Assembly (NCBI GenBank): GCA_011322365.1
Contig: DRNA01000187.1
Location: forward strand, 1 to 32,142
Direction: 5' to 3'
Source: Aeromonadales bacterium
GTDB taxonomy: Bacteria > Pseudomonadota > Gammaproteobacteria > Enterobacterales > GCA-002770795
DNA length: 32,142 nucleotides
Below, in pieces: positions 9,668 through 25,663 of this stretch (the stretch's first letter is position 1; every line of letters starts with the position of its first letter). Both the position numbers and the translations under genes were made by a program. The notes under the pieces were generated by a model. It ran no database searches. It was not told where the DNA came from and worked only from the letters and a program-made list of their open reading frames with translations.

Positions 9668-9703
9668 CTGCAGCCAGGAGACTGTCCGAAAGTCTTAACA
9701 AAT

Positions 9704-9730
9704 CATAATCCTGCATTTTGCAGGATTATG
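9704..9730. terminator. First hairpin of a tandem hairpin region downstream of mucD
   Basis: Perfect 12 bp inverted repeat CATAATCCTGCA-TTT-TGCAGGATTATG. Confidence 0.6.
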
Positions 9731-9733
9731 GGT

Positions 9734-9770
9734 ATAAATAAAGCCACACTATTGTGGCTTTATTTATTTT
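9734..9770 (+). terminator. Rho-independent terminator downstream of mucD
   Basis: Perfect 15 bp stem ATAAATAAAGCCACA-CTAT-TGTGGCTTTATTTAT followed by a short T run. Confidence 0.75.
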
Positions 9771-14058: not shown

Positions 14059-14970
14059 ATGATAAAAAAACAAAATAAGCAAAAAAAGTGTGGATTAGTC
14101 GCCATTGTAGGAAGACCCAATGTGGGTAAATCAACTTTATTGAATCATCTGATTGGTGACAAAATTTCCATTACCTCACGTAAGCCACAAACTACCCGCC
14201 ACCGTATTACTGGTATTTTAACTACAAAAGATGCTCAAATTGTTTTTATTGATACACCAGGATTACATAAGCATGAAGCCAGAGCCATAAATCGCCATAT
14301 GAACCGGGCGGCAAGTAGTAGTTTGCTTGATGTGGATGCGATAGTTTTTGTTGTAGATGCCGATATCTGGAATGAAGATGATGAACTGGTGTTATCCAAA
14401 ATTAAAAGTGCTTCAGCACCGGTATTTTTATTTATTAATAAAATAGATAAATTGGCCACTAAGGAAGAGTTGTTACCGCTATTGGAAAAATACTCAACGT
14501 TGATGAACTTTAAAGAAATTATCCCCGGTTCGGCACTAAAATTTAAACAGCTGGATCAACTCAAGAACACGCTTATCACTGTTCTCCCTCAACAGACGTT
14601 TATGTTTCCGGAAGACTATATTACCGATAGAAGTGAACGATTCCTGGCGGCAGAAATCGTCCGGGAAAAGTTAATGCGTTCATTAGGTGACGAACTCCCT
14701 TATTCAACCACCGTAGAAATTGAAAAATTCAAGGTCAATGAGAAACAGATAATTGAAATCTATGCATTAATTCTGATTGAAAGAAAAGGCCAGAAAAAAA
14801 TTGTTATTGGTCAAAAAGGCGCTCATTTAAAGAGAATTGGTTCAGAAGCTCGAGTTGATATGGAAAGATTATTTGGCCAAAAGGTATTTCTTAAACTCTG
14901 GGTAAAGGTTAAAGATGGCTGGGCAGATGATGAACGGGCGTTAAAAAGCCTGGGTTATACAGATTATTAA
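14059..14970 (+). CDS. era: GTPase Era
   Basis: [44 protein letters not shown] motifs and C-terminal KH domain. Confidence 0.97.
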
Positions 14971-14991
14971 TCAGGTAAAATCATAAATGGT

Positions 14992-15759
14992 ATGATGATA
15001 CAAAAGGTTGAATTTGAACCGGCAATTATTCTCCATCGAAAGCCATATAAAGAAACCAGTCTATTGGTTGATTTGTTGACGTTGAATTATGGGCGTATAG
15101 CATTAGTTGCCAATGGCGCCAGGAAATCAAGAGATAAAGCCGGTTTACTTCAGCCATTTCAAATGTTATCTGTTAGCTGGAAGTCGCGTTCTGATCTGGG
15201 CACACTAACCCAGGTTGAACTTATGAGTGCCTTAGTTGAGGATGGCGATCTGGGTATGGATTTCCCCTGGGTAAAACGATTACAGGGTTCAAGATTATAT
15301 TGCGGCCTGTATCTTAATGAACTTATCATTAGATGTATTCAAAGAGTTCAGGCGATTGATGGACTTTTTCAACTTTACTGTCATAGCCTCGAGTTATTGC
15401 AAAGTGATATTGAAGAGGCGGTGGTTTTAAGATCGTTTGAATGGCAATTGATTCGCCTGTTAGGCTATGGTGTGTCATTAAACCAGACCAGAAATGGAAT
15501 TGATATTGAACCTGATAAATATTATTACTATCATGTAGGGCATGGTATTGATGAAACTACTTCATCATCTCCACAGGCAGTCTCTGGTGCCGCATTACTG
15601 GAATTTCATTGTGGTCAATGGCATAAAGCTGAATTTGCTAAAGATGCCAGGCAATTGACATGGCAGGCATTGCAGCCTTTTATTGGTGATAAGCCATTCG
15701 CCAGCCGACGTCTTTATCAGGGATTATTACAGCAGCAGAAAAGTATAAAAATTTTTTAA
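14992..15759 (+). CDS. recO: DNA repair protein RecO
   Basis: N-terminal OB-like sequence ([35 protein letters not shown]), located between era and pdxJ. Confidence 0.93.
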
Positions 15760-23896: not shown

Positions 23897-25351
23897 ATGG
23901 AACAGCACACATTTAATAAGTTATGGAAAAATTCATTTATAGTTTTTTTACTTTTTAGTACTATTGTAATAGTGAGCTGTGGAGGTGGCAGTACTAGTAC
24001 CAGTTCTTCACAGCCGCCAGCGCCCCCTGCTTCAAAGATTCCAGATACTAAAGCGGTTACTCCGATCCCTCCCCTGATAGCAGTAGCACCTGAACCAGCT
24101 CCAATGGTGGTCACTCAGGCAATATTAAGAGTGGTTCACCGAAATACGATTTCGGGTATCCTTTCACCCAATGGAGATTATATAGATAGTGATAATGCAA
24201 CGGTTGAAAAACGAGGTTCACTGGGGCTTTATTTTGAAGTGACACGTGAAACCGATAACCGTTACCGCATTGAGCCAGAAAACAATGGCTTAGCTTATTT
24301 CAGAGTAATTACTACCAAATCGAATGGCTCTAAAAGAGTGCATAATTTTTATGGAGTTAAACCTGGCTTTTACATGACTTTTGATACTACCGATGTTGCA
24401 TTTCAGAAGCCGGAAAACCCATTAACTCTGTGCAAAAAGGTGGATATTCGATTGCTCAATTTACCCGCGACTGGAAGTGATTCCATTATCTCTATCAACG
24501 GATTTAATCTTTCAAATCCGTTGATAGAACAAAGCAAAGGTTTTGTACAAGGTATCAATCTATGCCCAATTGATTTGGAGCTTCATTACCTTGCACTGGT
24601 AGTTATTGAAAATTCGGAGTCTGACATTCGTTACGGCTTCAACTTTTATCAAAATCTGCAAGAGAATGATTTTCTGGAAGTTGATTTAGCTTACCAGGCT
24701 GATATTATTCCCTGGCAATCAAATCATGAAATAGGTAACGATTTTCAGCTGTACGGTTTTCAAAACGGCTGGAGTAAATATGAATTACTTTATAGCAGTC
24801 CCAAACGCAATAATACAGCCGGTACTTTCCCTGAATTTAGTCAATTGGCATTAAGTACTTTTCGATTTATAAGTGATTCAACTAATCTTGATAGTGGCAT
24901 TAATATGTTCACCCGCGAACTGGCAGCAGATGTTTCTCAAGTCGATTTTGCTATTAATAATATGGAGTTTACTGATTTATCCTTAAACCCGTTAGACTTA
25001 AGTTGGTTAAATGTTGGTGTTGATCAACCTGAAGTGATAACCGGTTTGATTTTTAATAGCAGTTTAAAACAAAGTTATGCATTTATGTCTATGGATGACT
25101 CTGTGCTCAGTAGTGGCAAATTTGACTTCCCTCTAGATGATGTTCCTCTACTGGTCGACAGCCTGCTATTTTCTGTTACCGGAGCTGCGGGTATCAATAA
25201 TACAGATTATAATTACATTTCAGAAGCTGCGTTATTTTCCGGATTTTTGTACTGGCCTGATGAAACAGTGAACGTCACGGTTAATTCTGATGTTTTTATC
25301 AGTGCAAATGGTTCCGAAATATTACAATTTATTCTGGATAATAAATTATAA
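23897..25351 (+). CDS. Uncharacterised lipoprotein
   Basis: Signal peptide with lipobox (FSTIVIVSC) followed by GGGSTSTSSSQPPAPPAS low-complexity linker; no recognised domain. Confidence 0.8.
   Translation: MEQHTFNKLWKNSFIVFLLFSTIVIVSCGGGSTSTSSSQPPAPPASKIPDTKAVTPIPPLIAVAPEPAPMVVTQAILRVVHRNTISGILSPNGDYIDSDNATVEKRGSLGLYFEVTRETDNRYRIEPENNGLAYFRVITTKSNGSKRVHNFYGVKPGFYMTFDTTDVAFQKPENPLTLCKKVDIRLLNLPATGSDSIISINGFNLSNPLIEQSKGFVQGINLCPIDLELHYLALVVIENSESDIRYGFNFYQNLQENDFLEVDLAYQADIIPWQSNHEIGNDFQLYGFQNGWSKYELLYSSPKRNNTAGTFPEFSQLALSTFRFISDSTNLDSGINMFTRELAADVSQVDFAINNMEFTDLSLNPLDLSWLNVGVDQPEVITGLIFNSSLKQSYAFMSMDDSVLSSGKFDFPLDDVPLLVDSLLFSVTGAAGINNTDYNYISEAALFSGFLYWPDETVNVTVNSDVFISANGSEILQFILDNKL
24491..24528. 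repeat. Perfect 15 bp inverted repeat inside the lipoprotein CDS
   Basis: TCTATCAACGGATTT - AATCTTTC - AAATCCGTTGATAGA. Confidence 0.85.
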
Positions 25352-25362
25352 TTTCAGCTGAA

Positions 25363-25632
25363 ATATACCCGTTCTACTTGAAGATGCATGTTTCAGAGTT
25401 CAGACGGGAAGTCAGAACAAGGCGCAACTTGCAGCGAATGGTTATTCCCTTCGCAAAAGTTGCAACGCAGGGCTGGCTTCCCGTCTGAGCTCCCGTAGGG
25501 CAAGAGGATAAGCGCGCATCTTCGGTGTTATAAAAGTTTGCGTTAGAATGACTAACACTTCACTTTTATGCCTTGAATCTGCACGCTTCTTCTCTTGCTG
25601 AAATCATGCATCTTCAAGTAGAACGGGTATAT
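25363..25632. mobile_element. MITE-like non-coding element with 28 bp perfect terminal inverted repeats
   Basis: Left end ATATACCCGTTCTACTTGAAGATGCATG (25363-25390), right end CATGCATCTTCAAGTAGAACGGGTATAT (25605-25632), exact reverse complements; internal inverted repeats 25396-25415/25473-25492 and 25500-25517/25581-25598; no ORF in the provided track. Confidence 0.8.
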
Positions 25633-25663
25633 ACCCGCTGGTATCTGATTTATAGTTGTTGTT

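Follow-up and report, generated by a model that had tools for sequence, protein, structure and literature searches.

The element and its neighbourhood

The stretch of DNA analysed here (the window) comprises 32,142 nucleotides of an Aeromonadales genome, and the feature under study occupies positions 25363–25632, between convergent genes that were read from the sequence as a lipoprotein gene (plus strand) and an amidohydrolase gene (minus strand). The stop codon of the former lies at 25351 and the element starts 12 bp further on, as had been reported in an earlier note on this DNA. That note described a non-coding, MITE-like element with perfect 28-bp terminal repeats and two separate internal hairpins, and most of this description was borne out. 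The two ends are exact reverse complements, and in a repeat search the outer arms reached a length of 39 nt (25355–25393 and 25602–25640) with 90% identity. The same search recovered the first inner repeat (25396–25415 and 25473–25492, 90%), and the second was recovered by folding. Both the minimum free energy and the centroid structures have the proposed shape of a three-way junction, i.e. an outer stem with two side arms. The RNA fold of 25363–25632 has an energy of -154.9 kcal/mol compared with -77 ± 4.9 kcal/mol for shuffled sequences (z = -15.9), and the opposite strand gives z = -15.7. No open reading frame of 100 or more amino acids is present. The two inner hairpins are not independent features, being inverted copies of one module of about 96 nt. 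Provided that the TA is a duplicated target, the element proper is the 264-bp segment 25366–25629 (TACCC...GGGTA), and the region is organised as follows.

25364..25365, no strand: left TA target dinucleotide; both ends of the copies keep TA, and TA is the target at the empty sites of relatives
25366..25396, plus strand: left terminal inverted repeat and outer stem, TACCCGTTCTACTTGAAGATGCATGTTTCAG; pairs perfectly with the right end over 28 bp and matches IS630-family 3' ends
25397..25491, plus strand: module alpha, hairpin arm 1, CAAGGC ... AATGGTTATTCCC loop ... AACGCAG; alignments and covariance model R1, 87.9 bits (the window copy, L001, is among the R1 training sequences, so this is the score of a training member)
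25492..25501, no strand: linker between the modules, CCCGTAGGGC; 7–13 nt in the measured elements, those with other ends included
25502..25597, minus strand: module beta, hairpin arm 2, the inverted module copy, CAAGGC ... TTAGTCATTCTAA loop ... AACAC; alignment and arm-1-only model on the opposite strand, E = 8e-13
25598..25629, minus strand: right terminal inverted repeat and outer stem; 28 bp exactly complementary to the left end
25630..25631, no strand: right TA target dinucleotide; sequence and empty sites of relatives

Immediately 3' of the right end, at 25630–25646, a second TATACCCG start is found, and several other copies likewise abut another end; the element may thus have inserted into what was left of an older copy. 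Elsewhere in the window, a short perfect hairpin (CATAATCCTGCA-TTTT-GCAGGATTATGGGTATA) at 9702–9735 in an intergenic gap matches a second end subtype of the family and is a relic that has lost both arms.

Copies, mobility and the IS630-family partner

A BLAST search of the element's own genome (497 contigs) demonstrated that the element is multi-copy, with many loci at E = 1.2e-138 to 1e-25, including full copies up to 97% identical as well as many partial ones. A degenerate pattern for the ends matched 125 ends in this genome and none when the pattern was reversed as a control; among the matches listed it was found in at least Shewanella, Psychromonas, Colwellia, Photorhabdus, Vibrio, Photobacterium, Rheinheimera and others. 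The copies fall into length classes of about 60 bp (outer stem only), about 160 bp (one arm), about 265 bp (two arms, the commonest) and 300–400 bp (with inserts). In several species (loci L165, L142, L071 and L324) the apical loop of the module is interrupted, always at one position, by an insert of about 48 nt that contains two small hairpins (GCTCCTGCATT... and CTACATCCATGTAG), the second motif resembling CCTACATGGATGTA of Yersinia RU-2. The copies are intergenic, since none of the 96 tested with a simple ORF caller lies inside a predicted reading frame. Carriage by phages or plasmids was rejected, as there was no phage match and the only non-chromosomal carriers were Pseudoalteromonas chromids and one 2.1-Mb Photobacterium replicon. 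An apparent 2.6-kb transposon (L155) was also rejected, being merely two repeats on either side of chromosomal genes.

IS630/Tc1/mariner elements insert at TA. The TA target duplication that had been suggested for the window copy is supported by the TA flanking most copies at both ends and by the empty sites of relatives, which agree although their flanks have drifted by a few bases. The search for empty sites succeeded at two Pseudoalteromonas chromid loci carrying relatives' copies and failed at the window's own locus, because no close relative shares that neighbourhood. In the hisS–ispG gap, the element is present in two strains, absent from three and reduced to a decayed relic in another; in the gap between a TonB receptor gene and yegS, it is present in two strains and the site is empty in P. 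donghaensis. The junctions at these loci are consistent with insertion at TA followed by small later changes. In the corresponding comparison of genomes G014 and G038, the sequences were too diverged for the junctions to be read. Two strains of Pseudoalteromonas shioyasakiensis (L168 and L169) carry the element in opposite orientation at one yegS-side site, the element being 98.9% identical after inversion and the flanks 92.5%; this reflects either an inversion in place or two insertions at nearly one TA.

The transposase-bearing partner that had been looked for, an IS630-family insertion sequence with the predicted TATACCC...AAGATGC ends, exists. In the metagenome-assembled genome NORP44 (G005), a DDE_3 transposase lies inside a 1,100-bp element with the ends TATACCCGTGATCAATGAAGATACTTG and TATACCCATCATCANTCAAGATGCAGG; the MITE of the same genome has the end TATACCCATCATCATTCAAGATGCATG, and the 3' end of the insertion sequence equals this local MITE end across its first 24 nt, one N excepted. 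The protein matches the NCBIfam IS630 equivalog with 252 bits. Homologues of the transposase occur in 25 of the 395 genomes of the order, mostly with the same kind of ends, and the IS630 ends around the transposase genes stand about 1.1 kb apart. At another locus (L216), the 3' end of the insertion sequence, TATACCCGTTCAACTTGAAGATACAGG, is close to the window's TATACCCGTTCTACTTGAAGATGCATG. The ISEc40 group, whose transposase is 59% identical to the NORP44 partner, has ends (TATACCCGTGATCATTGAAGATGC and TATACTCAATAAACCTCAAGATGC) like those of the element; unlike the element, it is autonomous and about 1.1 kb long, with unequal left and right ends and without the hairpin core. The own genome retains a disrupted IS630 transposase gene that has the left end typical of the family (L184/L225, G000:C227 near 14597–15415), incomplete owing to a stop codon and the contig end.

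When 11 complete copies of the insertion sequence were compared with the MITEs by BLASTN, ordinary MITEs shared the ends, and more than the ends was shared only by an IS-derived relic of 508 bp, both among the matches listed. An origin of the core by internal deletion of the insertion sequence was rejected, because the ends alone match; the core is not derived from the insertion sequence. One locus (L131) is a true deletion relic of the insertion sequence. The module was found in 19 of the 25 transposase-bearing genomes and in 150 of the 370 others (p = 6e-4, with kinship ignored). Four copy-rich genomes (G014, G038, G028 and G037) are without any DDE_3 transposase, so the mover there was lost or is different (another enzyme or past activity).

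The element is thus of a known kind, an IS630-linked MITE, and the reading as a non-autonomous transposable element is well supported by its many copies, the TA targets, the empty sites of relatives and the partner with the same ends. Judging from these sequence comparisons, it is probably moved by an IS630-family transposase.

Among known repeat families, REP/REPIN sequences are palindromes of 20–40 bp tagged GTAG or CGTC and moved by a tyrosine transposase; by description the present element is set apart from them by its size and its TA-bounded ends. Other IS630-linked MITEs have been described in the cited parts of two accounts, namely RUP and MITEPlu5, the latter with CCC-type IS630 (PMC2229807, PMC6267812). 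The MITEPlu5 or ERIC-type repeats of Photorhabdus, tied to ISPlu3, ISPlu8 and ISPlu19, resemble the element in the CCC near the end, the TA target, the very strong secondary structure and the many copies; MITEPlu5 differs in sequence and length class (123 bp), and the cited part of its description mentions neither a core of two modules nor compensatory changes, nor the recurrence of one core between other ends (PMC6267812). Identity with ERIC or MITEPlu5 (123–127 bp) was rejected, since the length classes differ and there was no match to the element in 5,426 ERIC-carrying E. coli genomes. The pneumococcal RUP shares its terminal repeats with IS630-Spn1 and targets TA, as here, but it is 107 bp long and confined to one species, and a two-arm core does not figure in the part cited (PMC2229807). 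CIR of Caulobacter and Brucella has two long hairpin arms with a linker, a conserved predicted structure and intergenic positions like the element, from which it is set apart, according to the portion of the description used, by having neither end-to-end pairing nor terminal repeats and by a GANTC methylation site in the loop (PMC2229807). As the ends of the element pair over 28 bp and neither the conserved loops nor the module consensus contain GANTC, identity with CIR was likewise rejected. The Correia/NEMIS repeats of Neisseria share the TA terminal repeats, stem-loop transcripts and two length classes differing by an internal block; in the cited part they differ in size (107/155 bp), in sequence and in the proposed processing of their transcripts by RNase III (PMC2229807). 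A search of the full-text literature by end and loop sequence yielded no description of the two-module core; ISfinder was outside its scope, and an earlier entry there is possible.

The hairpin module and its different ends

For the analysis of the core, 17 dissimilar subfamilies were split into their arms and each arm was oriented by its own motif; in distant subfamilies the labels of the arms follow the orientation chosen by MAFFT, so that some may be interchanged, but one model fits both arms. The two arm alignments have identical invariant positions, AGGC near 25–28 and AAC...G near 68–75. Pairing, called with RNAalifold and scored with a pair counter, extends to 90.8% and 91.2% of the cells, compared with 61% and 58% in shuffled alignments and at most 45% in slid controls. 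Double-sided, compensatory changes affect 29 of 31 and 30 of 33 pairs. The structures were called from the same alignments on which they were scored, which favours them over the slid versions; compensatory changes so numerous are not produced by that bias. The covariance-model check that had been proposed thus came out positive: the stems of the module covary, and a model trained on arm 1 alone recognises arm 2, on the opposite strand, in most of the full-length elements tested. The core of about 205 nt is characterised by the fixed internal loop CAAGGC / AACGCAG, an apical loop of the GGTYATTCC type and covarying stems. The conserved geometry together with the compensatory changes indicates that the hairpin fold has been maintained across many rounds of copying, and the interior of the element is more conserved in shape than its terminal repeats.

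With the covariance model the module was found in 169 of the 395 genomes of the order. Of 399 genomes from throughout the phylum, 88 gave matches, among them members of further orders of the class and a family that belongs to a different class; these searches covered one phylum, and the R1 E-values are rough. The distant loci have paired inverted modules in a fixed geometry (261–272 bp) within dissimilar terminal sequences, which comprise CCCTGCCCTTTACCC, CTAGTACTCCTTCAAC, TTAGAGCCTGTTCAAAG, AGAGCCTGTCTCAC and CTAGGGGGCGTTCTC as well as TAGGGTCTGTTGACG, GGGAGACACGGATCG, GTGTCCTGCCCTCC and TTATTGCTCCATTC. Some of these end types are probably related to one another (the AGRGYCTG type and the GTGTCCTG type), and a safe count of unrelated types is therefore about five or six. 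In an alignment spanning the end types, 93.9% of the cells are paired and 31 of 34 pairs show compensatory change, with slid controls at 43% or less. Plain BLASTN, without any model, aligns a 215-bp core between differently ended elements in one family; in one genome (G515), two copies have 215-bp cores that are 90% identical and dissimilar ends. The link of the window's core to those of the other class rests mainly on the covariance model and on alignment z-scores, which for the other-end elements against the window were 1.6 to 9.3 for alpha, -1.1 to 2.6 for beta and -0.6 to 3.3 for the ends. Homology across classes is accordingly well supported for the alpha module; for the beta module its basis is structure and position. 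The loci read contained no partner transposase for the other end types, and for the GGGTCTGTTG ends the PF01609 matches did not supply one either. A further locus (L320, G636:C222) has tandem elements that consist of one module each and have different ends (GGGAGCTGCTGATTAACTC).

What is new here is that the interior is conserved in shape beyond the ends and is common to several end types. Somewhat short of an even chance, in our estimate, is the wider reading that the core of about 205 nt evolves as a unit in its own right. It would have been used repeatedly by MITEs whose ends are unrelated, and hence with different transposases, across the Gammaproteobacteria and at least one other class, and it would be retained through a host or element protein that recognises the internal loop of the hairpin, be it in DNA or in transcripts from one strand or the other.

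Possible roles of the core

If selection acted on one RNA strand, G-U pairs should far exceed A-C mismatches. With RNAalifold applied to one strand, G-T was far above A-C, and structures called from the opposite strand gave the inverse relation; in pairs common to the structures of both strands, G-T and A-C occupied 42 and 32 cells, respectively. As the two are about equally rare, it is most likely in DNA hairpins, or in transcripts from one strand or the other, that the fold is of importance, and not as one dedicated RNA. This strand symmetry is claimed only loosely, and a strand signal could be hidden because the two modules face opposite ways. The same figures bear on the view that the element works as RNA, i.e. 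as a structured part of transcripts (a processing, stability or termination signal) spread by transposition in the manner of Correia/NEMIS and ERIC. The extreme RNA folding energy and the strong covariation would suit such a role, as would precedents that act in transcripts according to the cited part of PMC2229807. Since G-T does not clearly exceed A-C in the strand-unbiased pairs, no T-run and no enrichment between convergent gene ends were found, and no Rfam family was matched at gathering or permissive thresholds, a role as RNA seems rather unlikely. Much less probable still, to the point of being hardly credible, is the role put forward in the earlier note, a bidirectional terminator shared by the convergent genes, which was prompted by the position of the element 12 bp past a stop codon. 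The outer stem is not followed by a T-run, and the one terminator-like match, which is weak and near chance (0.5 expected), lies inside one arm. Family-wide, the gene settings of the copies (51 tandem, 26 divergent and 19 convergent) show no convergent bias relative to control gaps (225, 87 and 71), and beside the element at the yegS site of Pseudoalteromonas stands an ordinary terminator separate from it.

Pairing could also be kept up by mutation, through template switching or arm-to-arm gene conversion during replication, in which case the element would be an ordinary MITE with decaying filler. The outer ends within one copy differ by 3.2 mismatches in 26 nt, compared with 6.1 between copies, and this, the strand-symmetric mismatches and the one possible in-place inversion are what such a process would leave behind. 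It does not explain the invariant unpaired AGGC and AAC...G that are common to both arms and across classes, nor the fixed module length and the alpha/beta loop pairing, and we regard it as improbable. Similarly doubtful is the proposal that the core is itself the mobile unit, or is repeatedly captured, and shifts between end types by an enzyme of its own. The similar 215-bp cores with different ends in one genome would fit this, and so would the sharp core boundaries near a CAG step at the inner end of many terminal repeats; every core characterised, however, sits within a pair of terminal repeats, and many ends of the Pseudomonas-like family are related in their outermost letters (AGGGYCTG), so that fast concerted change could mimic swapping.

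We consider it highly probable that the element as a whole is a MITE whose ends are recognised by an IS630-family transposase and whose core consists of two inverted hairpin modules. The feature in the window would then be a full-length copy with ends of 31–33 bp, most likely recognised by a transposase of the ISEc40-like group of the IS630 family (Tc1/mariner superfamily), which presumably inserts it at TA. Of this course of events, the many copies, the ends shared with the insertion sequence, the TA flanks and the occupied and empty sites in relatives are observed; the movement by this particular enzyme is deduced from them. The DNA hairpins in question would form in single strands at the replication fork or as cruciforms. 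The core might be bound by a protein that recognises its internal loop, and its task, as a best guess, would be that of a structure-dependent aid, acting in cis, to the spread or the tolerance of the element.

Bacterial MITEs are customarily viewed as transposon ends enclosing junk. In the present element the interior is the conserved part, its shape and a few unpaired letters persisting over very large evolutionary distances while the stems and the terminal repeats were rewritten, which suggests that the hairpin core does something hitherto undescribed. For the many intergenic repeats that have escaped annotation, the covariance model offers a practical route. The conserved interior also raises a testable question, namely whether a non-autonomous transposon carries a structural device that aids its spread or tolerance, and which protein reads it.
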